DNA of 47,728 bases. Source: an uncultured Deferribacteraceae bacterium (GTDB lineage Bacteria > Chrysiogenota > Deferribacteres > Deferribacterales > Mucispirillaceae). This document shows positions 2,747 through 41,566 of the stretch, in pieces (position 1 is the first letter of the stretch; every line of letters begins with the position of its first letter). Where the stretch lies: positions 1 through 47,728 of the forward strand of contig CAMQYS010000015.1 in assembly GCA_947039395.1 (NCBI GenBank), given 5' to 3'. Under the pieces are notes generated by a model. That model saw nothing but the letters and a program-made list of their open reading frames with translations, was not told the origin of the DNA and searched no databases. The translations under genes were made by a program, and so were the position numbers.

Positions 2747-3358
2747 TCAAAAAACATTTAACGGTGGTAACCCCATTTCTTTATCCATTCCAGATAGATT
2801 GATTGTACAGCCAAAAAAAACTAGAGAATGGAAGATAAATTCATCATCTTTATTTTCTTGAAAATCTCCGTTGTCATTGAACTTAAATATAACTTCACTA
2901 CTGTCAGCTAGTTTAAAAAAAGTGTTAGCAGTTTCTTTTGATAAGGTGATAGTTTCTGTACGTTCTTGATCACCTAGTTTATCCCATTCGACATATTCAT
3001 CAGAGAATATTGCTATAAAAAATAAAGGAGTTATAGAAGCATATTTTTTTACAAGTTCAATGTCTTTATATTTTCCAGTTGCGTATATCTGTATAGTTCC
3101 ATCTGCTAACTTATTTTCACTCCACTTTATATCGGTTAATATGGTGTTTACTATCTCTTCATTTGTAACGGTTGTTATCTTAGATATCTTATCAATAGGA
3201 GTGAAAGCTGTTAAGTAAAAATCTGTGTTTTTAACTTTAGTTATGTTTTCAGTTATAGAATTATTCTTACTTATAGAACTGTTTTTATCAGCACAAGAAA
3301 TAAGTAGCGATGAAATTACAGTTATACATATAAGTGTAACTATTTTTTTTATTATCAT
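2747..3358 (-). CDS. Lipoprotein of a four-member tandem family, function unknown (copy 2)
   Basis: A 203-residue protein with an N-terminal hydrophobic segment and lipobox LLISC (Cys 22). It has the family motif YATGKYKDIELVKKYA near the middle and the C-terminal motif FGCTINLSGMDKEMGLPP. It lies 30 bp after copy 3 on the minus strand, so copies 4, 3 and 2 are likely cotranscribed in that order. The start MIIKKIVTL uses an A8 run right after the first codons, which is relevant to the apparent frameshift in copy 4. Function unknown. Confidence 0.85.
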   Translation of the reverse strand: MIIKKIVTLICITVISSLLISCADKNSSISKNNSITENITKVKNTDFYLTAFTPIDKISKITTVTNEEIVNTILTDIKWSENKLADGTIQIYATGKYKDIELVKKYASITPLFFIAIFSDEYVEWDKLGDQERTETITLSKETANTFFKLADSSEVIFKFNDNGDFQENKDDEFIFHSLVFFGCTINLSGMDKEMGLPPLNVF

Positions 3359-3388
3359 AATCCAGCCTCTAAATTTTAATTATTTTTA

Positions 3389-3991
3389 TCAAAGTTCATC
3401 TACAGGTGGTAACTCCATTGCTTTATCCATTCCAGATAGATTGATAGTATATCCGTTGAAAACTAGAAAATTAAATACAAGCTGATCCTCTGTAGACTCT
3501 TTAAAAGTGCCGTCAATATTGAACGTAAGTGTAACCTCATTTATATCAGAGTTCTTAGTATCGGAGCTGTTGAAAAAGTGGGTTGAAGCTTGCTTTGCAA
3601 TTGAGAGTATGGTTATACGAAATTCCTCATTTTGTTTCTCCCAACCAGTATAATTACTATTAGCGTTAATCGCTATAAGAAATATTGTAGTGAGTGATGC
3701 GTATTTTTTTGCAAGTTCTAAATTTTTATATTTTCCAGTTGCGAGTATCTGCTTAGTTCCGTCATCTGCTTTTTTTTGTGTCCATGTTACATCAGTTAGC
3801 ATCGTATTGACTACTACTTCATTTGTAACAGTTGTAACAGTTGCTACATCTATAAGACCTTTTTCGCTTACCATATCTATCAAAATAGTATCTGCATTTT
3901 TAGTTGTATCTATATTTTTACCAGCACAAGATATCAGAAAAGATGAGATTAAACTTATACATAGAATTGTAAATATTTTTTTAGTTATCAT
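3389..3991 (-). CDS. Lipoprotein of a four-member tandem family, function unknown (copy 3)
   Basis: A 200-residue protein beginning MITKKIFTILC with lipobox FLISC (Cys 22). It has the family motifs ATGKYKNLELAKKYA and FNGYTINLSGMDKAMELPP. It is closest to copy 2: the C-terminal 25 residues are nearly identical, implying recent duplication or gene conversion. GGAG-type ribosome binding site (AAGGAGTTCTCT before the ATG on the minus strand). It sits between copies 4 and 2. Function unknown. Confidence 0.85.
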   Translation of the reverse strand: MITKKIFTILCISLISSFLISCAGKNIDTTKNADTILIDMVSEKGLIDVATVTTVTNEVVVNTMLTDVTWTQKKADDGTKQILATGKYKNLELAKKYASLTTIFLIAINANSNYTGWEKQNEEFRITILSIAKQASTHFFNSSDTKNSDINEVTLTFNIDGTFKESTEDQLVFNFLVFNGYTINLSGMDKAMELPPVDEL

Positions 3992-4043
3992 AGAGAACTC
4001 CTTAAAATAAAAAATAATAAAACCAGCAGTTAGAAACTAGAAA

Positions 4044-4682
4044 TCAGAAATTATCTATTATAGGCAGATCTAGCACTTTATCTATCCCGTTGAGTGAGAT
4101 ATCATATCCTATAAAAGTTAGATAGTTAAAAAGTAGAGACCTATCTTTAGGTTCTTGAATTTCACCACTTTCATCGAACATAAATGTACCTTTACTAGTA
4201 TCACTTAGTAGAAAAATATCATCTGTAGATTTTTTAAAACCGATCATATATTTTGTGTACATTATTGGATCTGCTTGATCCCAATCGATCCTTCCCATAG
4301 ATGAGATCACCATAAAAAACAGTTGAGTTAAATATGCGTTCTTCTTAGCTTTTTCAATATCTATATACTTGCCTGTTGCATAGATATATTTTGATCCATT
4401 ATCTATTATTTTCCCCGTCCACTTAACATCTGTTATAATATTGTTAATGACCTCTTTATTTGTTAGATTAACAATTTTAGTATTGTTATCATGTTCTATC
4501 ATTCCGCTTAACATACTATCTGTATTTTTAACGTAGGTTATCCCTGTGCTTACACAAGATATGAATAGCGATGAAATTAAAATCATACATAAAAGTGTAA
4601 CTGTTTTTTCATTATCATTAAGAACTCCCAATCTAGCGGTTATAATCAAAATTATTTTAATTATAAAGTTATATGTAACCAC
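4044..4682 (-). CDS. Lipoprotein of the four-member family with a displaced or frameshifted start (copy 4)
   Basis: The body has lipobox LFISC, the motif YATGKYIDIEKAKKNA and the C-terminal motif FIGYDISLNGIDKVLDLP, so it is the fourth family member. The open frame begins at 4682 with an atypical long N-terminus lacking a clear ribosome binding site. The start expected from the paralogues is the ATG at 4618 (minus strand), which has a good GGGAG site 6 nt upstream. It is out of frame by one base because the following A-run (4604-4609) has six A; one more A would restore a start MIMKKTVTLL like its siblings. It may be a recent frameshift, a slippage-controlled start or a sequence error. Confidence 0.7.
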   Translation of the reverse strand: MVTYNFIIKIILIITARLGVLNDNEKTVTLLCMILISSLFISCVSTGITYVKNTDSMLSGMIEHDNNTKIVNLTNKEVINNIITDVKWTGKIIDNGSKYIYATGKYIDIEKAKKNAYLTQLFFMVISSMGRIDWDQADPIMYTKYMIGFKKSTDDIFLLSDTSKGTFMFDESGEIQEPKDRSLLFNYLTFIGYDISLNGIDKVLDLPIIDNF

Positions 4683-19483: not shown

Positions 19484-20200
19484 ATGTTATTTAATGTAAA
19501 TATAGATCATGTTGCAACACTTAGAGAGGCTAGAGGTGGTATAGAGCCATCAGTTCTTGATGCGGCATTAATTGTAGAAAAATGTGGCTGTGATGCTATA
19601 ACTGTTCATTTACGAGAGGATAGGCGTCATATACAAGATGATGATCTATTTACGATAATGAAAAGTGTAAATATCCCTATTAATCTTGAGATGGCATTAA
19701 GTGAAGAGATTATAGATATCGCATTAAAGTTAAAACCTAAGCAGATAACAATAGTTCCAGAAAGAAGGGAAGAGCTAACAACTGAAGGTGGTTTTGATAT
19801 TGTACGATATTTTGATAAAGCAACCAGTATGTTATCTGTATTTGCTGAAACAGGTATTTTATTGAGTTTATTTATTGATCCAGATGAGGATCAGATATCT
19901 GCATCAAAGGCGGCAGGTGTTGACATTATTGAGATTCATACAGGGGAGTACTCTAATTCATCAACATCAGATGCGATAAGTTTTGAACTTAATAGAATTA
20001 GTAAGGCAGCTATTAAGGGTAAGGAGTTAGATTTACAAGTTGCGGCAGGGCATGGATTAAATTATAGCAACATTGCACCGATTGTGAAAATTTTAGAGAT
20101 AGAAGAGTTGAATATTGGACACTCTATAATATCAAGATCGGTATTTGTAGGTTTAGAGAGAGCTATATTAGAGATGAAAAAATTAGTTGAGGTATTGTGA
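19484..20200 (+). CDS. pdxJ: Pyridoxine 5'-phosphate synthase
   Basis: A 238-residue TIM-barrel enzyme that makes pyridoxine 5'-phosphate from 1-deoxyxylulose 5-phosphate and 3-amino-2-oxopropyl phosphate. The N-terminus NVDHVATLREARGG-like stretch (here NIDHVATLREARGG), VHLREDRRHIQDDD, EIHTGEYS and AAGHGLNY are diagnostic. It lies 22 bp after glmM and overlaps acpS by 14 bp. Confidence 0.97.
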   Translation: MLFNVNIDHVATLREARGGIEPSVLDAALIVEKCGCDAITVHLREDRRHIQDDDLFTIMKSVNIPINLEMALSEEIIDIALKLKPKQITIVPERREELTTEGGFDIVRYFDKATSMLSVFAETGILLSLFIDPDEDQISASKAAGVDIIEIHTGEYSNSSTSDAISFELNRISKAAIKGKELDLQVAAGHGLNYSNIAPIVKILEIEELNIGHSIISRSVFVGLERAILEMKKLVEVL

Positions 20201-20543
20201 CATAATAGGTTGTGATATAATAGAGATAGATAGAATATCTAAATCTATCAATGATTTTGGAGACTCTTTTGTAAGTAAGATTCTTTCAGTAAAAGAGATT
20301 GAAGAGTATCTGTTTAGAAAAAAAAGCTTAACATATATATCTGGTAGGTTTGCAGCAAAAGAGGCTGTATCTAAAGCATTGGGTACAGGTTTTCATGCAG
20401 GTTTACTATTAAGAGATATCTCAATTCTTTCAAATCCGTTAGGTGTTCCAGAAGTTTACATCAAAAATAAGAGACGTGTTGACATTCATGTTACGATCTC
20501 TCACAGTAAAAACAATGCGATCTCTTTTGCACTTATAAAATAG
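20187..20543 (+). CDS. acpS: Holo-[acyl-carrier-protein] synthase
   Basis: A 118-residue enzyme that transfers phosphopantetheine from CoA to acyl carrier protein. It has the N-terminal GCDIIEIDRI with the metal-binding Asp and the second motif RFAAKEAVSKALGTG. The only possible start in frame is TTG at 20187, inside the end of pdxJ; no ATG or GTG lies before the conserved IIGCDII segment. Length is normal for the family. Confidence 0.93.
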   Translation: MRYCDIIGCDIIEIDRISKSINDFGDSFVSKILSVKEIEEYLFRKKSLTYISGRFAAKEAVSKALGTGFHAGLLLRDISILSNPLGVPEVYIKNKRRVDIHVTISHSKNNAISFALIK

Positions 20544-20596: not shown

Positions 20597-21334
20597 ATGA
20601 GTGCAGTCATTATTCCAGCACGAATAGGATCGACTAGATTTCCTGCAAAAGTTTTAGCGTTAATAGATGGTGTTCCGATGGTTGTCAGAACAGCTATGCA
20701 GGCTATTAAATCTAAGGCAGATAAGGTAATTGTTACAAGTGATTCAGAAGAAGTTCTTAATCTGTTTAAAGATATAGATGAAGTTTCAACGGTATTAAGT
20801 GGTTCAGATATCAAAACAGGAACAGATAGAGTTGCTTTAATTACACAAAATATCCCTGATGAAGTTATTATAAATCTACAATCAGATGAACCATTTATAG
20901 ATTATAAACTTATAGATCAACTTATAGATGAATTATCTATTGATAATAGTAACTTTAAGATGATAACTGCAGCGACATTATTTAATGATATCAATGATGT
21001 TACTAATCCATCATATGTCAAAGTAGTTTTTAATAGTTTTAATTTAGCATTATATTTTTCAAGATCGGTTATACCGTACAATAGAGATAATATAGCTGGA
21101 GTTTCATACTATAAACATATTGGTATTTACGGTTATCGTAGAGATTTTTTATTTTGGATATTATCGAAACCACGTACATCACTAGAGATATCTGAAAACC
21201 TTGAACAGTTACGAGTTTTAGAGCATGGGTATAATATCAAGGTTGTAGAGACTGATTATAATCCAATATCAGTAGACACAGCAGAAGATTTAATAATAGC
21301 AGATAATTATTCAAAAAGTTTAAGAGGTAAGTAA
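20597..21334 (+). CDS. kdsB: 3-deoxy-manno-octulosonate cytidylyltransferase
   Basis: A 245-residue enzyme that activates Kdo with CTP for lipopolysaccharide core synthesis. The N-terminal signature IPARIGSTRFPAKVLALI, the DEP motif in LQSDEPFID and the segment HIGIYGYRRDFL are typical. The usual QGDEP is QSDEP here. It is 7 bp before pyrG, which makes the CTP it uses. Confidence 0.93.
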   Translation: MSAVIIPARIGSTRFPAKVLALIDGVPMVVRTAMQAIKSKADKVIVTSDSEEVLNLFKDIDEVSTVLSGSDIKTGTDRVALITQNIPDEVIINLQSDEPFIDYKLIDQLIDELSIDNSNFKMITAATLFNDINDVTNPSYVKVVFNSFNLALYFSRSVIPYNRDNIAGVSYYKHIGIYGYRRDFLFWILSKPRTSLEISENLEQLRVLEHGYNIKVVETDYNPISVDTAEDLIIADNYSKSLRGK

Positions 21335-21341: not shown

Positions 21342-22964
21342 ATGTGTAAATATATATTTATCACGGGTGGAGTTTTGTCATCATTAGGTAAAGGGATAAC
21401 AGCAGCATCGTTATCATCATTACTTGAGTTACGTAACTATAAGGTAAAGATTAAGAAGTTTGATCCATATTTAAATTATGCATCAGGCACGATGAGTCCA
21501 TTACAGCACGGCGAGGTTTTTGTTACAGAAGATGGTGGCGAGGGCGATTTAGATTTAGGACATTATGAGCGATTTTTAAACAGTAAAACGGATAAGAGTT
21601 CAGATATTACATCTGGCAAAATATTTTATAATGTATTAGAGAAAGAGCGTAAGGGTGATTATGAAGGTGGTACAGTACAGGTTATTCCTCATATCACAGA
21701 TGAGATAAAATTAAATATATGTTCTGATAATGAAGGGTATGATATAGTTGTTGTAGAGATCGGTGGAACAGCAGGCGATATAGAAGGGTTACCGTTTTTA
21801 GAAGCGATTAGACAGATGAAGTTAGATAGTTCTGATGATATATTATACGTTCATGTAACACTTATTCCATATATTAAATCTGCGTTAGAGCTTAAAACAA
21901 AACCGACACAGCACTCTGTTAGACGTTTGCAAGAGATAGGTATTTCTCCAGATATATTGGTATGTAGAAGTGAATATCCGATAGATATGGAAATTAGAAC
22001 GAAGTTATCACTTTTTTGTAATGTTGATGAGAATGCTGTTATTTCATGTATAGATCAAAATACAATATATCAAGTACCTCTTGTACTTAATGAAGAGAGA
22101 ATGGATTTTGTTGTATTGCAAAAATTAAATTTACCTGATAGAGAAGTTGATCTATCAATATGGCAAGATATAGTGCGACGTATAAAACAGCCAAAAGATA
22201 GTATTAAGATCGGTATAGTTGGTAAATATCTTGGTACAAAAGACTCTTATATATCATTAAAAGAGGCGTTACTTCACGGTGGATTACCGAATGAGTTAAA
22301 AGTTGAAATAAAGTGGATTGATGCAGAAGTATTAGAAAATTGCGATCATGTTACAGATTATTTTGCTGATGTTGATGGTATTTTAGTTCCGGGTGGATTT
22401 GGAGAAAGAGGAGTAGAGGGTAAAATTATCGCTGCCAATTATGCACGAATGATAGATATTCCCTTTTTAGGTATCGGACTTGGAATGTGTGCAGCGGTTG
22501 TGGAATATTCAAGAAATGTATTAAAGATTAAGAATGCAACTTTAGCAGAATCAAAAGATACTACATCTAAAGAGTTAGTTATAGATTATCAGCATGATGA
22601 GTGTTACAATGTAGAGTTAGGTGCAACTATGCGTTTAGGTGGGTATAAAACAGAAATTATAGATAACACGCTTGCAAAATTGATATATGAAGAGGATACA
22701 GTTTTAGAACGACATAGACATAGATTAGAGGTAAACAATAGTTATAAAGATCAACTTGAACAGAATGGAATGATAGTATCAGGTAAATCTATTGATTGTG
22801 ATCTGATAGATATCATGGAGATTAAATCTCATAGATGGTTTATAGTAACTCAATTTCATCCAGAGTTTAATTCTAAACCGTTTGCTCCACACAAGATTTT
22901 CTCTTCATTTGTAAAAGCGAGTTATGAGTATAAAGTTAGTAAACGATCTACTGATATAAATTAA
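21342..22964 (+). CDS. pyrG: CTP synthase with glutaminase nucleophile position changed to glycine
   Basis: A 540-residue two-domain enzyme. The N-terminal synthetase domain is well conserved (GGVLSSLGKGITAASL, MSPLQHGEVFVTEDGGEGDLDLGHYERF). The C-terminal class I amidotransferase domain keeps PGGFGERG (oxyanion region), the lid RHRHRLEVNN and the His/Glu of FHPEF. The nucleophile elbow, normally GICLGMQ, reads GIGLGMC at 377-383. The catalytic Cys is therefore Gly at 379 and the Gln position has Cys at 383. Two codons differ from the canonical form (GGA and TGT). Glutamine hydrolysis is predicted lost or altered, and the enzyme may depend on free ammonia. kdsB lies 7 bp upstream. Confidence 0.95.
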   Translation: MCKYIFITGGVLSSLGKGITAASLSSLLELRNYKVKIKKFDPYLNYASGTMSPLQHGEVFVTEDGGEGDLDLGHYERFLNSKTDKSSDITSGKIFYNVLEKERKGDYEGGTVQVIPHITDEIKLNICSDNEGYDIVVVEIGGTAGDIEGLPFLEAIRQMKLDSSDDILYVHVTLIPYIKSALELKTKPTQHSVRRLQEIGISPDILVCRSEYPIDMEIRTKLSLFCNVDENAVISCIDQNTIYQVPLVLNEERMDFVVLQKLNLPDREVDLSIWQDIVRRIKQPKDSIKIGIVGKYLGTKDSYISLKEALLHGGLPNELKVEIKWIDAEVLENCDHVTDYFADVDGILVPGGFGERGVEGKIIAANYARMIDIPFLGIGLGMCAAVVEYSRNVLKIKNATLAESKDTTSKELVIDYQHDECYNVELGATMRLGGYKTEIIDNTLAKLIYEEDTVLERHRHRLEVNNSYKDQLEQNGMIVSGKSIDCDLIDIMEIKSHRWFIVTQFHPEFNSKPFAPHKIFSSFVKASYEYKVSKRSTDIN

Positions 22965-23051: not shown

Positions 23052-24023
23052 ATGGAAAGAAAAGATATATTAAAAATAGGACAAGAAGCTTTACAGATAG
23101 AGATAGACTCATTATTATTAGTGAAGTCTAAGTTATCTAATTCTTTTATAGATGCTGTAGAAGCAATATATAATTGTATAGGTAGAGTAGTAGTTATAGG
23201 TATAGGTAAATCAGGACAGATAGCTAAAAAGATATCAGCAACATTAGCATCAACTGGAACGCCATCATTTTTTCTTCATCCAGCAGAGGGTATGCACGGT
23301 GATTTAGGAATGATTGTTAAAGGCGATATCGTTATCATGTTATCAAACAGTGGTGAGACAGAGGAGATTAAATCACTTCTACCAACTATTAAAAGGTTTG
23401 ATGTAACACTTATATCAATAGTAGGCAATGTAACCTCAACGCTTGCAAAGTTTGCAGATATAGTGATTGATGCAACGGTGGAGAAAGAGGCTTGTTCACT
23501 TAATTTAGCACCGACATCATCAACAACTGTTGCATTAGCGTTAGGTGATGCCTTAGCTGTAGCACTTGTAGAGAAACGAGGTTTTAAGGCAGAAGATTTT
23601 CTTAAATTTCATCCATCAGGAAGTTTAGGTAAAAAGTTGTTAGTAAAAGTTTCAGATATTATGCGTACAGGGAGCGATTTACCGATTGTTAATTATGACT
23701 CATCTGTTGATGTAGGCGTTAATATGATAAATGAGAAAGGTTTCGGTTGTACGGCTGTACTAGATGATGATAGAAAGTTGATAGGTATTATTACAGATGG
23801 AGATATAAGACGTGCAGCAAGTAGCAATATCTTAAATACAGCAAAAAGTGTAGAAGATATAATGACTAAATCGCCTAAAGTTATTTCATCAATTGAGTTA
23901 GTTGCAACAGCAGTTATGTTGATGGAGAAGCATAAGATTACGACATTATTTGTTGTAGATGATAATAAATATTTAGTTGGATTAATACATTTTCAAGATA
24001 TTTTAGTAGAAGGTATTATATAG
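23052..24023 (+). CDS. kdsD: Arabinose-5-phosphate isomerase
   Basis: A 323-residue KdsD/KpsF-family enzyme that converts ribulose 5-phosphate to arabinose 5-phosphate, the first step toward Kdo. It has an N-terminal SIS sugar-isomerase domain (GIGKSGQIAKKISATLASTG, HPAEGMHGDLGM, LSNSGETEEI) and two C-terminal CBS domains (about 205-265 and 270-323). Full length for the family. Followed by lptC without a kdsC gene between them. Confidence 0.95.
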   Translation: MERKDILKIGQEALQIEIDSLLLVKSKLSNSFIDAVEAIYNCIGRVVVIGIGKSGQIAKKISATLASTGTPSFFLHPAEGMHGDLGMIVKGDIVIMLSNSGETEEIKSLLPTIKRFDVTLISIVGNVTSTLAKFADIVIDATVEKEACSLNLAPTSSTTVALALGDALAVALVEKRGFKAEDFLKFHPSGSLGKKLLVKVSDIMRTGSDLPIVNYDSSVDVGVNMINEKGFGCTAVLDDDRKLIGIITDGDIRRAASSNILNTAKSVEDIMTKSPKVISSIELVATAVMLMEKHKITTLFVVDDNKYLVGLIHFQDILVEGII

Positions 24024-30998: not shown

Positions 30999-31565
30999 AT
31001 GTTTATGTTTAGTAGTTTTAAAGTTTATACGGTGTTAGTTATTTTTATATTTATGTTTTTATTTACATCAACTATCTATGCGAAGCCGAGCCTTAATGAT
31101 CAGTTAATAACTGCAGCCTACGATGGAAATTTAGATAAAGTTAGATCACTTATTAATCAAGGTACAGATATAAATACTAAGGATAACAATAACGCTACGA
31201 TATTGATGTTAGCAGCACTTGGAAGCCATGTTGAAGTTGTTAGGTTTTTGTTACAATCAGGAGCAGATGTAAACCTTAAGGGTGATAAAGGTGTTACAGC
31301 ATTAATGGTAGGTATTTTTGCTAATAGCGATATTTTGGTGCGTATGTTTTTAGAGTCAGGAGCAAAGGTTGATGATAAGTTTAATGGTGTAACGGCTTTA
31401 ATGGTAGCATCAGAGATCGGCAATCTTGATATAGTTCGTATGTTAGTTGAAGCAGGTGCAGATATTAATCTTAAAAACGATCATGGTAAAACAGCTCTAA
31501 GTTATGCAGTGCTTAAAGGCAACGCTAAAGTTATTGAATATCTAAAAAGTAAGGGTGCAAAATAG
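30999..31565 (+). CDS. Exported ankyrin-repeat protein (group I, first)
   Basis: A 188-residue protein with a signal peptide (about residues 1-28, ending STIYA before KPS) and about five ankyrin repeats of 32-33 residues. They show the standard T-ALM-A-----VV--L---GADVN pattern, ending in EYLKSKGAK. Ankyrin repeats bind other proteins; no enzymatic part is present, so it probably acts as a periplasmic or secreted binding protein. GGGG precedes the ATG. First of the ankyrin array. Confidence 0.92.
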   Translation: MFMFSSFKVYTVLVIFIFMFLFTSTIYAKPSLNDQLITAAYDGNLDKVRSLINQGTDINTKDNNNATILMLAALGSHVEVVRFLLQSGADVNLKGDKGVTALMVGIFANSDILVRMFLESGAKVDDKFNGVTALMVASEIGNLDIVRMLVEAGADINLKNDHGKTALSYAVLKGNAKVIEYLKSKGAK

Positions 31566-31708
31566 TACCTATAAAAATGAGAAGTAATGTTTTATTTAAA
31601 AATATGTATAGATTAATTAATTAAGTATATATGGAGAGTTATGATGTTGATTTTAAATAAGTTAAAAGTTTTAGTTCTGTTAATGTTTTTGGTTTCATCA
31701 TTTTTATT
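31551..31708. repeat. Group I intergenic module, type 1, copy 1
   Basis: The 3' end of the preceding ankyrin gene (GGTGCAAAATAGTA), the spacer with TATAAAAATGAG and TATATATGGAGAGTT, and the first codons of the next gene recur almost base for base at 33641-33797. This is a large direct repeat that places the same ribosome binding site and signal peptide in front of two ankyrin genes. Confidence 0.85.
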
Positions 31709-32666
31709 AACAACGGTATCAGATGTTAGATCAGAGCAGAGTTTAGATTTACAGTTAGTGATAGCGTCAAGCAAAGGCGATTTAGAGAAAGTTAAATCTC
31801 TTCTAAAGCAGGGAGCAGATATTAATACTGTGTATGAGATTGGGAATACAGTATTGATGAATACAATATCCATGAATCAATTAGAGGTAGCTAAATTTCT
31901 GATTAATGAGGGAGCAGATTTAAGTATCAAAAATAATCATCATCTGACACCGTTAATGCTAGCTTCACGAGATGGTAATTTAGAGATTGTTAAACTTCTA
32001 GTCAAAGCAGGAGCAGATGTTCATGCTAAAGATAAGTATGGACAGACAGCATTGACGTTATCAGCAGATCATAGCCACAAAGAAATTGCAACTTTTTTAA
32101 TTAAATCAGGTGCAGATATTAAAGATGACTCAGCTTATAAGGCTCTTCAATCGGCAGTATTTAGCAAAGATACAGAGTATGTAAAACTATTAGTTGATGC
32201 AGGTGTTAATATTAATATCGTACCAGATGATGAAAGTTCAACACCACTTATGTGGGCATCAGGCGAAGGCTCTTTTGATATCGTAAAGGTATTAGTAGAA
32301 GGAGGAGCAGATGTTAATTTAAAAAATAAATATGGTTATACAGCTTTAATAGTTGGCTCATCTAGTATAGAAGGTATTGATGAAAACATGGATGTTATCC
32401 GTTACTTAGTAAAGCAAGGAGCAGATATCCACGCTCTTAGTAATGATAATGTAACGGCATTAATGTTTGCTTCACAGAGTGGGAATTTAGCAGCAGTTTC
32501 ATTTTATATTTCAAAAGGTGCAGATATGAATGCTAAGAATGATGAGGGTTTTACAGCACTTACTTTAGCAGAAAAAACGCTTGCTGATGCAAGTGAAGAA
32601 GAGTTGGATTATTATGAAGGAGTTCCATCAGTTATAGAATTTTTAAAAAAGAAAGGTGCAAAATAG
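31641..32666 (+). CDS. Exported ankyrin-repeat protein (group I)
   Basis: A 341-residue protein with a signal peptide (about 1-30) that is nearly identical to that of the gene at 33730, then about nine ankyrin repeats to the end (FLKKKGAK). One repeat is disturbed near residues 155-185 (GADIKDDSAYKALQSAVFSKDTEYVKLLVDAG). A GGAG site stands just before two consecutive ATG codons (31641 and 31644). Predicted exported binding protein. Confidence 0.9.
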   Translation: MMLILNKLKVLVLLMFLVSSFLLTTVSDVRSEQSLDLQLVIASSKGDLEKVKSLLKQGADINTVYEIGNTVLMNTISMNQLEVAKFLINEGADLSIKNNHHLTPLMLASRDGNLEIVKLLVKAGADVHAKDKYGQTALTLSADHSHKEIATFLIKSGADIKDDSAYKALQSAVFSKDTEYVKLLVDAGVNINIVPDDESSTPLMWASGEGSFDIVKVLVEGGADVNLKNKYGYTALIVGSSSIEGIDENMDVIRYLVKQGADIHALSNDNVTALMFASQSGNLAAVSFYISKGADMNAKNDEGFTALTLAEKTLADASEEELDYYEGVPSVIEFLKKKGAK

Positions 32667-32827
32667 TATCTATAAAAATGAGCAGGAATGTTTTTATCAA
32701 AAATATTTATAGTAATTTAATTGTTATTTTAGGGATATTATTATGATTTCAAATCGTATTAAAATATATCAAGTATTTGTGTTTAGTTTAATTATATTTT
32801 TGTTTTCAATAAATGTGAAAGCAGAAT
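32651..32827. repeat. Group I intergenic module, type 2, copy 1
   Basis: The segment running from GGTGCAAAATAGTA through TTTTTATCAAAAATATTTAT and ATTGTTATTTTAGGGA into a signal-peptide coding start recurs at 35071-35248. Here it leads into an orphan signal peptide; at the other site it leads into a complete ankyrin gene. Confidence 0.85.
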
Positions 32828-32862
32828 ATTATAAGCGAGGAGTTCAATATGGTTATAAATAA
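32743..32862 (+). pseudogene. Orphan signal-peptide ORF, truncated copy of the gene at 35164
   Basis: This 39-codon ORF starts MISNRIKIYQVFVFSLI and runs through NVKAEYYKRG to a TAA. Its first 27 codons match the signal peptide of the complete ankyrin gene at 35164 with few changes. The ankyrin body is missing and the sequence switches after codon 27-28 to the TATTATAAGCGAGG leader of the next gene (32849), which overlaps its end by 14 bp. It looks like the left end of a deletion or unequal crossover. It could still be translated as a short peptide. Confidence 0.8.
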
Positions 32863-33655
32863 TATTAAAATATTTTCTATATTAATACTCTATGTGTTTA
32901 TGTTTGCAACTGTAGAGAGAGTGTATGCGAATGAGAGTTTAAATAATCAGTTAATTGAGGCATCAAATAACGGTAATTTAGCTGAAGTAAAATCGTTAGT
33001 AAAACAGGGTGCTGATGTAAATTATAAAGATGATATAGGACGTTCGGCGATATATGTTGGATGTTGGAGGTTAGATATTGTCAAATTTTTAATTGATGCT
33101 GGAGCAGATGTTAATACTCGTTATGATAGTAATACTATTTTAATGGAAGCATCTTATAATGGAGATATTAGTATTGTTCGCTATATTATAAAACAGGGTG
33201 GAGATATTCATCTTAAAAATCATAGAGGTACAACAGCGTTACTAGAAGCGACTCGTGGTGGTTATTTAGATATTATAGAGTTTTTAGTTAATCAAGGAGC
33301 AGATGTAAATACTGCAGATCACAATTATTTCACACCATTAAAGTGGACGATTACAGAAAGTGGGGATATGGATACGATACGCTATCTTGTGAAATCTGGT
33401 GCTGATATAAATTATAAGGGTGATCTTGATGGTACAGCGTTGATGTACGCCTCTCGAGTTGGTAATCTTACTATAGTTCGTTTCTTAGTTGAGCAAGGAG
33501 CAGATGTAAATATTGTAGGTAGAAACAATATGGAGACTTTAACATCTAAAAAACTTGAAGGTTACGATAAAAATAAGTATACAGCATTAATCGCAGCCGA
33601 GCTAGAAGGACAAACGGCTGTAATTGAGTATTTAAAAAGTAAAGGTGCAAAATAG
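32849..33655 (+). CDS. Exported ankyrin-repeat protein (group I)
   Basis: A 268-residue protein with a signal peptide (MVINNIKIFSILILYVFMFATVERVYA, mature NES) and about seven ankyrin repeats ending EYLKSKGAK. GGAG lies before the ATG. One repeat is shortened (SAIYVGCWRLDIVKFL). The leader and first 120 or so bases are copied in the pseudogene at 34736. Predicted exported binding protein. Confidence 0.9.
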   Translation: MVINNIKIFSILILYVFMFATVERVYANESLNNQLIEASNNGNLAEVKSLVKQGADVNYKDDIGRSAIYVGCWRLDIVKFLIDAGADVNTRYDSNTILMEASYNGDISIVRYIIKQGGDIHLKNHRGTTALLEATRGGYLDIIEFLVNQGADVNTADHNYFTPLKWTITESGDMDTIRYLVKSGADINYKGDLDGTALMYASRVGNLTIVRFLVEQGADVNIVGRNNMETLTSKKLEGYDKNKYTALIAAELEGQTAVIEYLKSKGAK

Positions 33656-33797
33656 TATTTATAAAAATGAGCAGGAATGTTTTATTTAAAAATATGTAAG
33701 CGTAATTAATTAGGTATATATGGAGAGTTATGATGTTGATTTTAAATAAGTTAAAAGTTTCAGTTCTGTTTATATTTTTGGTTTCATCATTTTTATT
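33641..33797. repeat. Group I intergenic module, type 1, copy 2
   Basis: Second copy of the module at 31551-31708. Differences are few single bases and a short indel near AAGCGTAATTAATTAGG. Confidence 0.85.
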
Positions 33798-34731
33798 TGT
33801 AACGGTTTTAGATGTAAGTGCAAATAGTAGTTTAGATAGAGAGTTTATAGAGACGCCAATAAGTGGTGATTTACAACAGGTTAAATCTTTAGTTAAACAA
33901 GGTGCAGATATTAATGCTAAGGATAGAGAAGACAGAACAGCGTTAGCGTTTGCAGCAGTTTCTGGAAAGTTAGATATAGTACAATATTTAATAAAAGAGG
34001 GTGCTAATATAAAGGGCAATTTTGGAGCTCTTCCGCTTGTATATGCCTCTTCAGCAGGACATTTAAAAGTAGTTAAATATTTAGTAAAAAAAGGTGTAGA
34101 TGTGAATACTATACCAACTAAAGGCAGTAACGGATTTACAGCTTTAATGCATGCAGTACATAAAGGAAATTTAGATATAGCAAAATTCTTAATAAAGGCT
34201 GGAGCAGATGTAAATGGTAAAAGTAAATATGGTTATACAGCTTTAATGCAGGTTAGAACGTTAGAGATTGCAAAACTTCTAATAGATAATGGAGCAGATG
34301 TTCATGCTAAAAATAAAAAGGGTTATACAGCGTTACATCTTGCATCAGGTAATTCTCATATAGGTATAGATATGATACATTATCTTATCAAGCAAGGAGC
34401 AGATGTTAATGCTCAAAATTATGATGGTTATACAGCGTTACATCTTGCATCAGAAGTTGGTATTAAAGATATTGTTGAGCTTCTTGTAAAGAGTGGAGCT
34501 TCGATTAAAATTACAGCTTATGATGTTGAAACTAGAATGAATAAGAATGGTGTTACAGCTTTAATGATTGCCTCAAATGGAGGTTATTTAGATATTGTAA
34601 AATATCTTGTGCAACAGGGTTCAGATATCCATACTGAGACAGGTGGTGGCTACACAGCATTAATGTTTGCATCCGACAACGGAGAAATAGAGGTTATGGA
34701 TTTTTTAGAAAGTTTAGGAGCAACTCAGTAA
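33730..34731 (+). CDS. Exported ankyrin-repeat protein (group I)
   Basis: A 333-residue protein whose signal peptide (MMLILNKLKVSVLFIFLVSSFLF, mature near NSS) is a near-copy of that at 31641, followed by about nine ankyrin repeats with a more degenerate first repeat. The end is MDFLESLGATQ rather than SKGAK, so the 3' end differs from the other group I genes. GGAG site before tandem ATG codons. It is followed by a pseudogene. Confidence 0.9.
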   Translation: MMLILNKLKVSVLFIFLVSSFLFVTVLDVSANSSLDREFIETPISGDLQQVKSLVKQGADINAKDREDRTALAFAAVSGKLDIVQYLIKEGANIKGNFGALPLVYASSAGHLKVVKYLVKKGVDVNTIPTKGSNGFTALMHAVHKGNLDIAKFLIKAGADVNGKSKYGYTALMQVRTLEIAKLLIDNGADVHAKNKKGYTALHLASGNSHIGIDMIHYLIKQGADVNAQNYDGYTALHLASEVGIKDIVELLVKSGASIKITAYDVETRMNKNGVTALMIASNGGYLDIVKYLVQQGSDIHTETGGGYTALMFASDNGEIEVMDFLESLGATQ

Positions 34732-34735
34732 CATT

Positions 34736-35086
34736 ATATTATAAGCGAGGGTTATTATATTCAAACGGTAAATAATATTAAAATATTTTCTATATTAATA
34801 CTCTATGTGTTTATGTTTGCGACGGTAGAGAGAGTGAGAGTGCTGTTGAGAGTGCAATACTAATACTAAAAAGATTGTAAATGAGAGTGTGAGTGCTGTT
34901 GAGAGTTTAAATAATCAGTTAATTGAGGCGTCAAATAACGGTAATTTATAAGTTGTAAAAGTTCTAGTTGATAAAGGAGCAAGTGTCAATTATCAAAACG
35001 ATCAAAAAGAAACACCACTTACTGTTGCAGAAAAAAATAGACATTTTTTAGTTATAGAGTATTTAAAAAGTAAAGGTGCAAAGTAA
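34736..35086 (+). pseudogene. Mosaic ankyrin pseudogene
   Basis: The left part (to about 34948) copies the leader, signal peptide and first repeat of the gene at 32849, but the ATG is replaced (TTCAAACGG). There is an insertion with a repeated GTGCTGTTGAGAGT, and an in-frame TAA lies at 34949-34951. The right part (about 34952-35086) instead matches the last repeat of the gene at 35164 (NYQNDQKE, TVAEKN) with the ending SKGAK. Two different parents are joined in one non-functional copy. Confidence 0.85.
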
Positions 35087-35248
35087 TATATATAAAACAT
35101 TTTTCAGAATGTTTTTATCAAAAATATTTATAGTAATTTAATTGTTATTTTAGGGAGATTATTATGATTTCAAATCGTATTAAAATGTATCAAGTATTTG
35201 TGTTTAGTTTAATTATAGTTTTGTTTTCAATAAATGTGAAAGGAGAAT
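35071..35248. repeat. Group I intergenic module, type 2, copy 2
   Basis: Second copy of the module at 32651-32827, here followed by an intact ankyrin gene. Confidence 0.85.
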
Positions 35249-35781
35249 CTACAATGAACAGCAGTCGTACGCCAGTGAGACTACATATTAATGAGCTGAA
35301 TTTACAACTTGCTTACGCTTCGCATAGCGGAGATTTTGAACAAGTTAAATTATTTATCAAACTAGGTGCAGATGTCAATAATAGTGTGGATGAATATAAT
35401 GGCACGGCGTTAGGCAATGCAGCAGGTGAGGGACATCTTGAAATTGTTAAATATCTAGTAGAGAAAGCTCATGCAAATATAAACTTAAAACCGTTTGAGG
35501 GTGGGTATACTATTTTAGATACAGCCTCAAGGGGTGGAAATTTAGATGTGATAAGTTACTTAATTAATAAAGGCGCAGATGTAAATTTTACTGATAATAG
35601 AGGCGACACAGCGTTAATAAATGTATCAAGAGATGGCAATTTAAAAGTTGCTAAACTGCTGGTTGACGCTGGTGCAGATATCAATTATCAAAACGATCAA
35701 AAAGAAAGTGCAGTTACTGTTGCAGAAAAAAATGGACATAGTGAAGTTGTAATGTATTTAAAGAAACATGGTTTAAAGTAG
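35164..35781 (+). CDS. Exported ankyrin-repeat protein (group I)
   Basis: A 205-residue protein with a signal peptide (MISNRIKMYQVFVFSLIIVLFSINVKG) and about five ankyrin repeats beginning LNLQLAYASHSGDFEQVKLF. It ends VVMYLKKHGLK. GGGAG precedes the ATG by a short AT spacer. It is the full-length counterpart of the orphan leader at 32743. Confidence 0.9.
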   Translation: MISNRIKMYQVFVFSLIIVLFSINVKGESTMNSSRTPVRLHINELNLQLAYASHSGDFEQVKLFIKLGADVNNSVDEYNGTALGNAAGEGHLEIVKYLVEKAHANINLKPFEGGYTILDTASRGGNLDVISYLINKGADVNFTDNRGDTALINVSRDGNLKVAKLLVDAGADINYQNDQKESAVTVAEKNGHSEVVMYLKKHGLK

Positions 35782-35857
35782 TATCTATAACTTATTGATA
35801 GATAAGTTATCATTAAAATATTTACAGAAGTTATATCGTAAAATAAGAGGGTTTAAA

Positions 35858-37567
35858 ATGTTGATTTATAATTGTTTGAAAAAAATTATTATAGGGGTTT
35901 TATTTATGTTTTCATTTCTGTTTATGTCGGTTGATGGTGGTAGTGCTAATGATGATTTAAATAATAAATTATTAAATGCAGCAATCAGTGAGAATTTAAA
36001 AGATGTGAAAAAGTTTATCAAACAGGGTGCAGATATAAACGCTGTAGATGTAAATAATAAATCGGTGTTAATGTATGCTTCTGGTAGAGGCTATATTGAG
36101 ATCGTTAAATTTTTAGTTAAGTCAGGCGCTAAAGTTAATCATAAAGATATTGAGGGTTATACAGCGTTACGATGGGCATCATTTGAACGTAGAGCTGATG
36201 TTGTTAAATATTTAATTGATAACGGTGCTGATATAAAAGTTGTAGATAAAAGAGGTTTAACACCGTTAATGGAGGCTGCAAAATCAGGCAGTATTAAAAC
36301 AGTTAGGGTGTTAGTTGATGCAGGATCAGATATTAATGCAAGAACGGGTACAGGTTCAACTGTGTTAATGTTTGCCTCAAAAGGTAACAGTGTTGATAAT
36401 GTTGAGGTTGTTCGTTTATTAGTAGATAAAGGTGCAGATTTGAATGCTACAGATAAGAACGGTACAACTGTTTTAATAGCTTCCACATATTTGATGTCAT
36501 CATCACTAAGTGGCGATACGGCAATGACTAATCTGCTGATAGAGTTAGGTATGGATGTGAATATTAAAGATAATGATGGCAATACAGCATTAATAACGGC
36601 TGCGATGAATGGTAATAAAAAAGTTATACCTATACTTGTTAATGCAGGTTCAGATATTGATACTAAAAATAGGAACGGAGAAACTGCTTTAATATGGGCA
36701 AGTAGTGAAGGAGAGATAGATATAGTTAATATCCTTTTAGAGTTAGGAGCAGATGTTAATATTAAAGATAATAGTAAAAAAACTGCATTAGATTATGCGT
36801 CAAACGGTGGGTATGATGATGTTGTTAAATCGCTTGCGGCATCAAGTGGCAGTAAGGGTAAGGGTAGTAAGTATCTAAAAAAGTCAGAGAAAGTTAATCT
36901 TAATAAAGAGCTTCTAAAGGCATCAGAGAAAGGTGATTTAAAGCAGGTTAAATTGTTACTTAAACAAGGTGCAGATATAGAGAGTGTAAACGGTTTCGGT
37001 TCAACTCCATTAATCGTTGCGTCATCATCTAATCATATTGATGTGGTTAAGTATCTATTAAAATCAGGAGCAGATATAGAGTCTTACAATTATGGAACAG
37101 CACTTGTTAATGCAGCATATTCTGGAAATTTTGATATTGTAAAATTGTTGATTAATAAAGGTGCGAATATTAAAAGTCGTAATGGACAAGATATGACGGT
37201 ATTAATGGTTGCGTGCATTAATGGGCATTTAGATCTTGCACGTTATTTGCTTAAACTAGGTGTAGATGTGAATGATGTTGATAATAAAAATGGTACTGCA
37301 TTAATAGTAGCAGGTTTTGGTGGCAACTTAGATACTGTTAAATTGTTAGTAAAGTCAGGTGCAAATATAGATGATAAAAATGATGATGGCAGAACGGCGT
37401 TAATGCGATCTGCACGCATGGGACATTTAGAAGTTGTAAAATATTTAATAGATCAAGGTGCAGAATATAAAGGTAAAGATAAGTACGGCGTAACGGCGTT
37501 AGAGATGGCTGATGATAATGGTAATAAAGATATAGTTAAATATTTAAAAAGTAAAGGTGCAAAATAG
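35858..37567 (+). CDS. Exported large ankyrin-repeat protein made of two ankyrin blocks (group I)
   Basis: A 569-residue protein. I place the start at ATG 35858 because AGAGGG (35846-35851) precedes it and it gives a clean signal peptide (MLIYNCLKKIIIGVLFMFSF...GGSA, mature NDD). Two ankyrin blocks, about nine then six repeats, are separated by a Ser/Gly/Lys linker (SSGSKGKGSKYLKKSEK, about residue 330-346). The second block begins LNKELLKASEKGDLKQVKLLLKQGADI, the same N-cap that starts the other group I proteins, so two ancestral genes appear fused. It ends YLKSKGAK. Confidence 0.9.
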   Translation: MLIYNCLKKIIIGVLFMFSFLFMSVDGGSANDDLNNKLLNAAISENLKDVKKFIKQGADINAVDVNNKSVLMYASGRGYIEIVKFLVKSGAKVNHKDIEGYTALRWASFERRADVVKYLIDNGADIKVVDKRGLTPLMEAAKSGSIKTVRVLVDAGSDINARTGTGSTVLMFASKGNSVDNVEVVRLLVDKGADLNATDKNGTTVLIASTYLMSSSLSGDTAMTNLLIELGMDVNIKDNDGNTALITAAMNGNKKVIPILVNAGSDIDTKNRNGETALIWASSEGEIDIVNILLELGADVNIKDNSKKTALDYASNGGYDDVVKSLAASSGSKGKGSKYLKKSEKVNLNKELLKASEKGDLKQVKLLLKQGADIESVNGFGSTPLIVASSSNHIDVVKYLLKSGADIESYNYGTALVNAAYSGNFDIVKLLINKGANIKSRNGQDMTVLMVACINGHLDLARYLLKLGVDVNDVDNKNGTALIVAGFGGNLDTVKLLVKSGANIDDKNDDGRTALMRSARMGHLEVVKYLIDQGAEYKGKDKYGVTALEMADDNGNKDIVKYLKSKGAK

Positions 37568-37608
37568 TATAGATATAATAGTAATAATAAGTTATCAAGG
37601 GGATTATA

Positions 37609-38694
37609 ATGGAGTACATGGACAGAGTTGTAGTTAAGCGAAGTATAAAAACACAGTTAATATATCTAATCATTAGTTTATTTGTAGGATCGATATTTGG
37701 ATTAATTTTTTATTTAGATTTAAGTAGTGTTCGGTATATTAATATTTTAATAAATGTTTTTGCAGGTGCGTTTGTATTATTCTTTGGCTCATTAGTTCTT
37801 CACATATTGAGGAATTTCACAAAACCGTTGTTAGTTATTGATGCAGTAGGGTTTCTTAATAACGGTGCAAAATATGGCATGATCCCATGGAGTAATGTGA
37901 GATATGTTTATAATGCAAAATCTAAATCAAATAGGAGTAAATCATCAAAATATATCGGTGATTGCGATATCGGTATTGAGCTTCTAAGTTATGATGATTT
38001 TATGAATTCATTATCAAAATCTAAACGTAAGTCAGAGAGTTTATTTCTATCAGTTCTTATTCCAGTGATTATAATTGATGCTACTTTTGCAAAAAGAAAT
38101 ATTAAAGATATTGTAGATATAATGAGAAAATACCTTGCAGAGTATCAGCGAAGTAACGAGGGATATAGTGGTTATGAGTCTAAAAATAAAGTTGTAGAGA
38201 AATTTGATAAGATAGTTTTAGAGCGACGTGGTGGACGCATAATGATGGACTTCTGTTTAGTAATGGTTGCGATCTTTTCAATAATAATGTCAGTTGTTAT
38301 TATGGAGGGTATGATTGAAGTTGGTATCATGTTGCTACCATTTATCATAATTTTTGGATCGTTAGCGATTAGGGTATTTATCAAGGCTAAAAATAAAACT
38401 CCTGTGATGGTTATAGATAGAGATGGGTTTACTGATTATGAAAACAACGCTGGTTTAATTTTATGGCGAGATTTAGAAAGTATGGAAGTTGTATCAAGGA
38501 CACGTACCTCAAAGGATTCAGATGGCAGAGCAACTGTCACCGTAACTACGACTATTGACGTCAAGGTTAAGGGTATAGATAAATTGATAATGCTCACACT
38601 TTTCGGACCTAATGAAACTCATGAGGATGTAGCAGATGTAATGCGTAGATATCAGAGTGAGTATATAAAAAACAACCCAAGTTCAGAATATTAA
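37609..38694 (+). CDS. Duplicated membrane/PH-like protein (STM3941-like)
   Basis: A 361-residue protein with an internal duplication. Each half has two transmembrane segments (about 15-70 and 203-248) followed by a soluble segment with PLLVIDAVGFLNNGAKYGMIPWSNV or PVMVIDRDGFTDYENNAGLILWRDL. That pattern (two membrane segments, P-vlVID-dGf, W-d-) matches small STM3941/PH-like membrane proteins, by eye. Good AAGGGG site. It is the sister of the N-terminal part of the next gene, 17 bp away. Function unknown. Confidence 0.75.
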   Translation: MEYMDRVVVKRSIKTQLIYLIISLFVGSIFGLIFYLDLSSVRYINILINVFAGAFVLFFGSLVLHILRNFTKPLLVIDAVGFLNNGAKYGMIPWSNVRYVYNAKSKSNRSKSSKYIGDCDIGIELLSYDDFMNSLSKSKRKSESLFLSVLIPVIIIDATFAKRNIKDIVDIMRKYLAEYQRSNEGYSGYESKNKVVEKFDKIVLERRGGRIMMDFCLVMVAIFSIIMSVVIMEGMIEVGIMLLPFIIIFGSLAIRVFIKAKNKTPVMVIDRDGFTDYENNAGLILWRDLESMEVVSRTRTSKDSDGRATVTVTTTIDVKVKGIDKLIMLTLFGPNETHEDVADVMRRYQSEYIKNNPSSEY

Positions 38695-38711
38695 AAGAAG
38701 TGTGATTTATA

Positions 38712-40340
38712 ATGGAAAATACAGATAGAGTTATAATTAAAAGAAATCTAATTAAGCAGTGGTTATATATAATTACTTGTGGAGTGTTTTTGCTTATTTT
38801 TTTATCGTTCTTCACGGTGGATATTCTAGATACAGTAGATATTTTTACAACGTTTTTTAGTACTATCGGTATTATAGGAACATCAATATTTGGATATTTC
38901 ACTATCACATTATTAAGAAGTTCTTTCAGACCGTTAATGGTTATAGACGGAGAAGGTTTTGTAGAGACGGGTAGATTTATATGTTTTGTACCGTGGAGTA
39001 ATGTAGCCAATATATGTGAGGCTGGATCGAACTCTAAATGGTTTAGATTACGCAATCGTAATAGAGGTAAGGTAGAGATAGAGTTAAGAGATGCAACTGA
39101 GTTTTTAAATTCTTTATCAAGGTTTAGAAGATTGTTAGTTGGCAGAAGTTTATCTATTAGAAAACCTAAAATCTATATTAGCCTTAGATTTACAGCTGTG
39201 AGTGATGTAAATATAGTAGATGATATGAATAGGTATTATAATATTTATCAAACAACGGTTGGTGGTTATAACGCTTTAGAAAAAATTGATAATATTGTAG
39301 ATAATTTAGATAGGGTAGTATTTGCAAGATCATTTTTTAAAGGGTTTATAGCGATAGTTGGAGTATCTATTTTTATTACATTTTTTGTAACAGCAATGTT
39401 AATTACTGGTATACCTAAGGGAGTGTTTAGTTCTCTAGTGATACTTTTTTTCGGATTTTTGACATTTATACTTGGAAGAATTGCGATAAACTTGATCCGT
39501 AAAATATTATATAAAATACCTGTATTAGTAATAGATAGAGATGGATTTACTGATTACACAAATAAGAGAGCTGTAATTCTTTGGAGCGATGTAGAGGGTA
39601 TAGATGTTGTAACAAGAACAAGCAGATCAACAGACTCAGATGGAGAAAGAAGCACAACGTATAGTACAACAATAAATATTAAACGTATAGGTATAGATAA
39701 ATTGCTTAAACTTTCATTATCGTTTGCTAAAGAAACAGAGGAAGAGATTGCAGATATAATGGTTATATATTATGAAGCGTATAAGAAAGAGAAAGATGTA
39801 AAGAAAGAAGATATCAACCCACATAATTATTCATCTACCTATGAATATAATATTAATGATTTTGGAAAATCAAATGAGAAAAAGTTAGGGGTAGACACAA
39901 TAGTAAATACAGAGATAAATATTGAACCTGCACTTAAAATTATATTAGTATCTGAGGCTGAGCCAGATAAGATGAATATTATCGAATATGCTTGTGATTG
40001 CGATATAGAGAAAGTAAAAGAGTGTGTAGCAAATGGAGAAGATATAAATAGTATAGATGGGTATGGACAGACAGCTTTATTTTTTGCATCAGCAAATGGA
40101 GAATTAGAGATAGTAAGTTATTTAGTAGAAAACGGCACAGCAATAAATCATGTAAATCATGGTGGAGATATCGCATTAATATTTGCATCAGAGGCGGGTG
40201 TTTTAGATGTAGTTCAGTATTTATATGATCAAGGTGCAGATATTAATCATAAAAATCATAATGGCTATACGGCGTTAGATGTAGCAAAAGAGCGAAATAA
40301 TGATGATATTGTAGAGTTCTTAGAGAGTGTAAATAAATAA
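38712..40340 (+). CDS. Membrane/PH-like protein fused to C-terminal ankyrin repeats
   Basis: A 542-residue protein. Residues 1 to about 365 parallel the preceding gene: MENTDRVIIKRN start, two membrane pairs, and PLMVIDGEGFVETGRFICFVPWSNV and PVLVIDRDGFTDYTNKRAVILWSDV. A charged linker (about 365-415) leads to about four ankyrin repeats (IIEYACDCDIEKVKECVANGEDIN to EFLESVNK) that are closest to the cytosolic ankyrin genes downstream. The fusion would hold ankyrin repeats at the inner membrane, probably on the cytoplasmic side. No frameshift is seen at the junction. Confidence 0.8.
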   Translation: MENTDRVIIKRNLIKQWLYIITCGVFLLIFLSFFTVDILDTVDIFTTFFSTIGIIGTSIFGYFTITLLRSSFRPLMVIDGEGFVETGRFICFVPWSNVANICEAGSNSKWFRLRNRNRGKVEIELRDATEFLNSLSRFRRLLVGRSLSIRKPKIYISLRFTAVSDVNIVDDMNRYYNIYQTTVGGYNALEKIDNIVDNLDRVVFARSFFKGFIAIVGVSIFITFFVTAMLITGIPKGVFSSLVILFFGFLTFILGRIAINLIRKILYKIPVLVIDRDGFTDYTNKRAVILWSDVEGIDVVTRTSRSTDSDGERSTTYSTTINIKRIGIDKLLKLSLSFAKETEEEIADIMVIYYEAYKKEKDVKKEDINPHNYSSTYEYNINDFGKSNEKKLGVDTIVNTEINIEPALKIILVSEAEPDKMNIIEYACDCDIEKVKECVANGEDINSIDGYGQTALFFASANGELEIVSYLVENGTAINHVNHGGDIALIFASEAGVLDVVQYLYDQGADINHKNHNGYTALDVAKERNNDDIVEFLESVNK

Positions 40341-40350
40341 TATAATAAGG
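40331..40350. repeat. Group II spacer repeat, copy 1
   Basis: AAATAAATAATATAATAAGG at 40331-40350 recurs exactly at 41192-41211 and 42397-42416. Each copy covers the stop codon of one ankyrin gene and the ribosome binding site of the next, and each next gene starts with a related sequence (TATAACGATGATTTTATT or similar). Confidence 0.85.
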
Positions 40351-40361
40351 TAAGTTATGTA

Positions 40362-41201
40362 ATGAAAAGCTATAATGATGATTTTATTAAGAAAGTAAAA
40401 AAAGGTGATGTTATCGGAGTGCTTGAATGTATTAAAAAAGGTATAAATGTTAATACTATAATTAACGAGTATGAGATTACAGCTTTGATACATGCTTCGT
40501 TGAGTGGCAATTTAGAGTTAGTAAAAGTTCTTATATCTGAAGGTGCAGATGTTAATGCTAAAGATGATAAATGTTTTACAGCGTTAACATGGGCATCAGA
40601 AAAAGGCGTAATAGATATAGTAAAGTATTTAATTGAAAATGGTGCAGATGTTAATAATATAGATAGTAATGGATCAACTGCAATTATAAGAGCAGCAGAT
40701 CAAGGACATTTAGATGTTGTTAAATATCTAATAGATCACGGTGCAGATTTAGAAGTTGTAAATGGATACGGTATGGCATTATTAACGAGTGCAGTTAGTA
40801 ATGGACAGTTAGAAGTAGTAAAGTTTTTAGTAGAGCGTGGTGCAGATGTTAATATTAAAGATAGGTGTCACAATACAGTATTAATGTGGTCTGTCTTTGG
40901 TTCATATTTAGAAATAACAGAATATTTAGTTGAGAAAGGAGCTAATCTTAATGTTCAAGATAAAGATGGCAATACAGCTTTGATTGAAGCTGTAGCACAT
41001 AACAATATGAAGATAGTAAAAATATTAGCTGAACAAGGAGCTGATATTAATATTAAAAATAATGAAGGTATGACAGCCTTAGATATAGCTAAAGAACGTA
41101 TAGATTTTATATTCGATAAAGATCAAGCAGGAGACGCTACAACTGAAGAAGTTGAAATAGTAAAAGAAGTTATAAAATACTTAGAGAGTTTAAATAAATA
41201 A
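40362..41201 (+). CDS. Cytosolic ankyrin-repeat protein (group II)
   Basis: A 279-residue protein without a signal peptide, starting MKSYNDDFIKKVKKGDVIGVLECIKKGINVN. About eight ankyrin repeats end in YLESLNK. An AAGG site precedes the ATG. The N-terminal 60 or so residues match the genes at 41223 (broken) and 42429, so the three are tandem duplicates. Confidence 0.9.
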   Translation: MKSYNDDFIKKVKKGDVIGVLECIKKGINVNTIINEYEITALIHASLSGNLELVKVLISEGADVNAKDDKCFTALTWASEKGVIDIVKYLIENGADVNNIDSNGSTAIIRAADQGHLDVVKYLIDHGADLEVVNGYGMALLTSAVSNGQLEVVKFLVERGADVNIKDRCHNTVLMWSVFGSYLEITEYLVEKGANLNVQDKDGNTALIEAVAHNNMKIVKILAEQGADINIKNNEGMTALDIAKERIDFIFDKDQAGDATTEEVEIVKEVIKYLESLNK

Positions 41202-41211
41202 TATAATAAGG
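41192..41211. repeat. Group II spacer repeat, copy 2
   Basis: Exact copy of the 20-bp spacer at 40331, here before the broken ankyrin gene at 41223. Confidence 0.85.
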
Positions 41212-41222
41212 GGAGTGATGTA

Positions 41223-41509: not shown

Positions 41510-41566
41510 ATAATCTTAAAAAAAATCAGATAAATGAAGATTGATAATCATATAAGGAGCAGGTAG

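Follow-up and report, generated by a model that had tools for sequence, protein, structure and literature searches.

CTP synthase (PyrG) has been described as dependent on glutamine but also able to take ammonia. Across the 800 genomes of one survey, all PyrGs (100%) carried a fused glutaminase (PMC3376133). In the E. coli enzyme, residues 354-362 form the lid (L11), Leu109, in the L4 loop, links the hydrolysis of glutamine to the formation of CTP, and the L109A, R429A, and G352P variants are damaged in glutamine use but keep NH3-dependent activity (PMC9138612). Human CPS1 carries Ser294 at the position of the lost nucleophile Cys and uses free ammonia (PMC4655335). NAD synthetase (NadE), an amidotransferase, occurs naturally in glutamine-using and ammonia-using forms (PMC3376133). 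Among the open-access papers searched, we found no report of a natural Cys-less CTP synthase.

We analyzed a stretch of 47,728 nucleotides (the window) from an uncultured Deferribacteraceae bacterium, which contains a pyrG gene, here called copy A. Copy A shares the two-domain architecture, the fold, and the synthase residues of E. coli PyrG (PDB 1S1M/5TKV/8SBR), from which it differs by the replacement of Cys379 with Gly, Leu109 with Glu, and Asp48 with Ala. The E. coli L109A, R429A, and G352P variants are laboratory mutants that keep Cys379, whereas the change in copy A is natural, old, and conserved. As in human and tetrapod CPS1, a class I glutamine amidotransferase (GAT) domain is kept and the synthetase domain is intact, with the nucleophile Cys gone; by this analogy copy A would work like CPS1 without being a member of it. 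CPS1, however, makes carbamoyl phosphate, and its ammonia dependence is experimentally established, whereas that of copy A is predicted. Copy A would also parallel ammonia-dependent NadE, which, however, has no glutaminase domain at all, whereas copy A retains its GAT domain.

Domains and nucleophile site of copy A

The gene and its parts are located in the window as follows.

21342..22964, + strand: pyrG copy A, CTP synthase of 540 aa lacking the nucleophile of its glutaminase
21342..22136, + strand: synthase (amidoligase) domain, residues 1-265 (PF06418, residues 3-264)
21480..21482, + strand: codon 47, Ala at the E. coli Asp48 position (alignment)
21663..21665, + strand: codon 108, Glu at the E. 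coli Leu109 position in the L4 loop (alignment)
22197..22961, + strand: class I GAT domain, predicted inactive (PF00117, residues 300-525)
22476..22478, + strand: codon 379, GGA for Gly at the nucleophile Cys position (codon reading, alignment)
22488..22490, + strand: codon 383, TGT for Cys, Gln in canonical PyrG (Ser in one congener)
22857..22865, + strand: His506 and Glu508, the remaining catalytic triad, kept in the window's genus (alignment)

Copy A matched CTP_synth_N (2.5e-116) and GATase (1.4e-30) in Pfam, and passed TIGR00337 (NCBIfam) over its full length with 731.5 bits against a curated cut-off of 462.75. The ATP, UTP, and Mg2+ residues K18, K40, D42, D72, E140, D147, K187, Q192, and K223 (E. 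coli numbering) are all kept. A predicted model of copy A, built with an alignment of 40 natural sequences, had a mean pLDDT of 90.5 and a TM-score of 0.94 to E. coli CTP synthase 8sbr_A, at 49% identity. By every sequence and fold criterion tested, copy A is a CTP synthase.

The nucleophile elbow gave a different picture. Codons 377-383 (22470-22490) read GGT ATC GGA CTT GGA ATG TGT, which encodes GIGLGMC; of the Cys-His-Glu triad, His and Glu are present, and Cys379 is replaced by Gly. Residue 379 of the window coincides with E. coli Cys379, and His506 and Glu508 correspond to E. coli His515 and Glu517. The E. coli reference sequence had Cys379, Arg470, His515, and Glu517 at the expected numbers, and it agreed with PDB chain 5tkv_A over the compared stretches. 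Every one of 42 canonical PyrGs, taken from the order, the phylum, other phyla, and E. coli, has Cys379. The original prediction of Gly379 and Cys383 in this motif stood when the codons were read directly. Its statement that the other motifs are intact also held for the oxyanion motif PGGFG, His, and Glu in the window's genus, but RHRHRLEVNN, which it had taken for the lid, is not the lid; the actual lid, L11, is intact as well. Judged from these residues, copy A lacks what defines an amidotransferase as glutamine-dependent.

In the window's genus, the synthase domain of copy A had a dN/dS of 0.037 and its GAT domain one of 0.106, close to the values of 0.033 and 0.085 for a second, canonical PyrG (copy B, see below). 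The frame of copy A is open in all genomes, and neither relaxed selection nor a broken frame, the marks of a pseudogene, was observed. Because it is under strong purifying selection, copy A is not a pseudogene.

Loss of Cys379 and gain of a second PyrG

The original prediction had proposed alignment with close relatives, and this revealed a lineage-wide loss: in the window's family (f1), Cys379 was absent from all 14 genomes in which copy A was found. Residue 379 is Gly in the window's genus (g1) and Ser in the two sister genera (g2 and g3). All four genomes of the window's genus have Gly379, encoded by GGA or GGG; since the congeners share the residue with synonymous codon differences, it is not a sequencing error, as the prediction had also argued. 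This draft assembly holds two pyrG genes that differ in origin, as a chimera or contamination might produce, but both copies recur over three genera, including one single-contig genome, and together with the independent congeneric genomes this leaves an artifact of any of these kinds with a negligible probability.

Variation around the elbow also bears on whether the nucleophile has moved, with Cys383 (or Ser379 in the sister genera) hydrolyzing glutamine instead. Cys383 (TGT) is present in three of the four species of the window's genus, a genus that retains His506, Glu508, and an intact oxyanion motif. In the fourth species, however, residue 383 is Ser (AGT), and outside the genus it is His in one sister genus (G004) and Gln in the third; on this natural variation we rejected Cys383 as a relocated nucleophile. 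In the model, moreover, residue 379 occupies the strand-helix elbow (strand 375-378, helix 380-392), which puts residue 383 one helical turn away. In genus g3, Ser379 is accompanied by loss of the catalytic His (His515Cys) and by Gly351Ala in the oxyanion motif. Two genomes of a second family of the order, f4 (G017 and G031; loci L046 and L048), have Ser, a one-residue insertion at the elbow (GLGSLG), and His515Leu. Any Ser-His dyad would be broken by these His515 changes, and a moved nucleophile is very improbable. The insertion and His515Leu of the f4 enzymes constitute, as far as their motifs tell, a second form of glutaminase loss, and in both genomes the Cys-less enzyme was the only PyrG found.

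In a tree from which the motif columns were excluded, the Cys-less enzymes of f1 and f4 were sisters (support 98) within the vertical PyrG clade of the order. Most simply, Cys would have been lost once before the f1/f4 split, first to Ser and later to Gly in the window's genus. In three other f4 genomes, the PyrG is canonical and falls on a separate branch, as if it had replaced the earlier gene.

The neighborhood of copy A was also informative.

19484..20200, + strand: pdxJ, conserved neighbor marking the ancestral locus (synteny)
20187..20543, + strand: acpS, conserved neighbor (synteny)
20597..21334, + strand: kdsB, CMP-Kdo synthetase, directly upstream of pyrG (PF02348, 1.2e-45; synteny)
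23052..24023, + strand: kdsD-like arabinose-5-phosphate isomerase (SIS + CBS), directly downstream of pyrG (Pfam, synteny)

The order pdxJ-acpS-kdsB-pyrG-kdsD is the site of the single canonical PyrG in the other families of the order. Since copy A shares this locus and lies within the clade of those enzymes in the tree, it is the native, vertically inherited PyrG. The kdsB product, CMP-Kdo synthetase, consumes CTP, so that the native enzyme keeps its place in a Kdo/lipopolysaccharide cluster.

Elsewhere in the window, about ten or more ankyrin-repeat genes lie nearly head to tail (30999-46763, + strand); Pfam confirmed three, and several of the proteins have signal-peptide-like starts. At the end of this run is a gene for an SMI1/KNR4 (SUKH-1) domain protein (47107-47442, + strand; Pfam); members of this class frequently act as immunity proteins. 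A tandem set of four genes, apparently paralogs of one another (1900-4682, - strand), encodes lipoprotein-like proteins of about 200 aa, and the one that was scanned had no Pfam match.

A further pyrG, whose product has GICLGMQ as well as His and Glu, lies on a different contig (C57) of the window's genome (G000).

L002, 1501-3084: copy B of the window's genome, in the order guaA-pyrG-glmS (further copies, L053-L064)

Copy B was found in 13 of the 14 copy-A genomes of the family, the exception (G008) being a draft. It is less than 50% identical to copy A, lies in a separate operon, and groups with family f66, outside the phylum (support 100, 60-61% identity). Because of this grouping with an unrelated family, copy B is, on the tree, a horizontally acquired gene, the transfer direction being our interpretation. 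In Mucispirillum schaedleri, a deferribacterial gut organism that probably belongs to the window's family, more than half of the genes are reportedly shared by transfer across phyla (PMC5285517). The presence of canonical copy B means that the organism probably keeps glutamine-dependent CTP synthesis. The L4 loop of copy B is altered (R104M/I, D107Y/Q/H, L109K/N), and its nearest outside relatives already lack Leu109. D107 and L109 changes in E. coli uncouple glutamine hydrolysis from CTP formation, and copy B may perhaps be leaky.

The synthase domain of copy A also carries a change. Asp48, invariant in the 42 canonical PyrGs, is Ala, Gly, Ser, or Asn in every Cys-less copy of the order. This change of an otherwise invariant synthase residue may be a counterpoint to ammonia use by copy A. 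Together with the loss of a neighboring Pro and of Cys, the further loss of His515 in sister genera, and the presence of canonical copy B, it would fit a pseudo-enzyme that regulates or senses UTP/CTP, all CTP being made by copy B. Against this reading, which we regard as improbable, the ATP, UTP, and Mg2+ residues are intact, constraint within copy A is strongest in the synthase domain, and no other PyrG was found beside the related Cys-less enzyme of G017 and G031.

Recurrence across bacteria

We scanned 84,980 species genomes with a degenerate DNA pattern of the PyrG GAT motif, which covers Gly, Ala, Thr, Arg, and Ser(AGY) at position 379 and excludes Ser(TCN). This gave 94 loci (L072-L165), all of them PyrG by alignment; the number is a lower bound because Ser(TCN) is outside the pattern. 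By NCBI taxonomy they fall into eight phyla (82 in Bacillota; also Chloroflexota, Spirochaetota, Verrucomicrobiota, and others), and three, recorded under uncultured Deferribacteraceae, belong to the genus of the window. Many record titles, taken by themselves, refer to rumen, gut contents, or digesters. The Cys state changes at least 10 times on the tree, a rough figure, as few canonical Clostridia are included, and some of the changes are perhaps regains (L170, L180, and L181 were excluded from this count, and their Cys motifs were included in the reading of second copies).

The Cys-less enzyme was the only full-length PyrG of 69 genomes out of the 94, with no second match of note. Another 18 had a second full-length PyrG, with Cys present in every one, and the remaining 7 had fragments as further matches. 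Two of the sole-copy records, those of Allofustis seminis DSM 15817 and of Tepidanaerobacter sp. GT38, carry no MAG label. If a sole PyrG were dead, the cell would have no de novo CTP. Apart from rare single exceptions, the full-length Cys-less PyrGs of all eight phyla, like those of f1 and f4, keep the substrate and metal residues in their synthase domains.

The GAT domains of these enzymes bear signs of silence. Among pairs of similar synthase divergence, the ratio of GAT to synthase divergence was 1.83 for Cys-less and 1.36 for canonical enzymes, so the GAT domain is under relaxed constraint in the former. Leu109 is kept in 21/82 Cys-less PyrGs versus 20/26 canonical ones, and Phe404 in 29/82 versus 24/26. 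Gly352, Arg356, and Gly357 are kept in Cys-less PyrGs, which indicates more than plain decay of the domain; a structural, ammonia-entry, or assembly role has probably been retained. Conservation of the lid, His, Glu, and Arg470 suggests that residual ligand binding or an allosteric function may also persist.

The frequency of sole copies also bears on the possibility that copy A is mainly a partner of copy B, forming mixed tetramers or filaments in which it tunes copy B or receives its ammonia. CTP synthase acts as a tetramer, and a neighboring protomer lends its L4 loop to the GTP site (PMC9138612). This loop is altered in copy B, and at Leu109 in copy A of the window's genus, and the two copies are kept together in nearly all genomes of the family. 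However, the Cys-less enzyme stands alone in the 69 genomes above as well as in G017 and G031, so that a partner is not required; copy B comes from a distant lineage and a different operon, with low identity to copy A; and Leu109 was already missing in its outside relatives. A partnership of this kind is unlikely, though it deserves more weight than a regulatory pseudo-enzyme.

Nitrogen supply and the role of copy A

Glutamine synthetase went undetected in 23/50 Cys-less genomes, compared with 37/293 for a class sample (Fisher p = 2.5e-7), but the test ignores relatedness, and a 90% completeness filter was requested for the class sample and not for the Cys-less MAGs; we treat a tie between its absence and the Cys loss as a lead only. 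The window's organism itself encodes a type III-like glutamine synthetase, which rules out glutamine auxotrophy or shortage as the cause there. General glutaminase decay in this genome was ruled out too: HisH and GuaA retain Cys, so the loss is specific to PyrG.

Class I GATase matches in the whole genome were limited to four, namely GuaA, HisH, and both PyrGs. A carA-like match was absent from the window's genus, and a 369-aa CarA-sized match was present in g3, suggesting that the window's genus has lost carbamoyl-phosphate synthesis.

A type III-like glutamine synthetase is reported for Mucispirillum too, and this organism reduces nitrate fully to ammonium (PMC5285517). Given complete nitrate reduction in Mucispirillum, ammonia should be plentiful at times. 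The window's genome encodes a cytochrome c552-family protein.

We therefore consider it quite probable that copy A is a native ammonia-dependent CTP synthase with a silent GAT domain, working alongside the acquired, glutamine-using copy B. With its nucleophile lost, copy A would probably be unable to hydrolyze glutamine and would make CTP from UTP and ATP by taking free ammonia instead, the GAT domain being retained as a structural shell. Ammonia use is supported by the E. coli variants, which are blocked for glutamine and still use NH3. After the single loss before the f1/f4 split, f1 would have gained copy B horizontally, and one cell would then hold an ammonia-using and a glutamine-using enzyme, the latter presumably serving when ammonia is low. 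The same loss would have been repeated in other anaerobes, often in the sole CTP synthase. Of the two outcomes foreseen by the original prediction, relocation to Cys383 was not borne out, and ammonia dependence, still a prediction, draws good support from the family-wide and repeated loss, the intact synthase domain, strong purifying selection, and the many sole copies.

More broadly, we lean towards the view that repeated nucleophile loss, mainly in gut, rumen, and digester anaerobes, has given rise to natural ammonia-only CTP synthases that are the sole de novo CTP source in many species, and that a family of Deferribacterales then gained a glutamine-dependent enzyme horizontally, resulting in a two-enzyme system matched to nitrogen supply. 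The large natural set of Cys-less enzymes could show which parts of the GAT domain are kept for reasons besides glutamine hydrolysis. DON is a glutamine analogue that attacks the Cys. If the view is true, these enzymes would offer a natural means of testing what GTP and the ammonia tunnel do and how glutamine analogues act, and essential CTP synthesis in many anaerobes would be uncoupled from glutamine.
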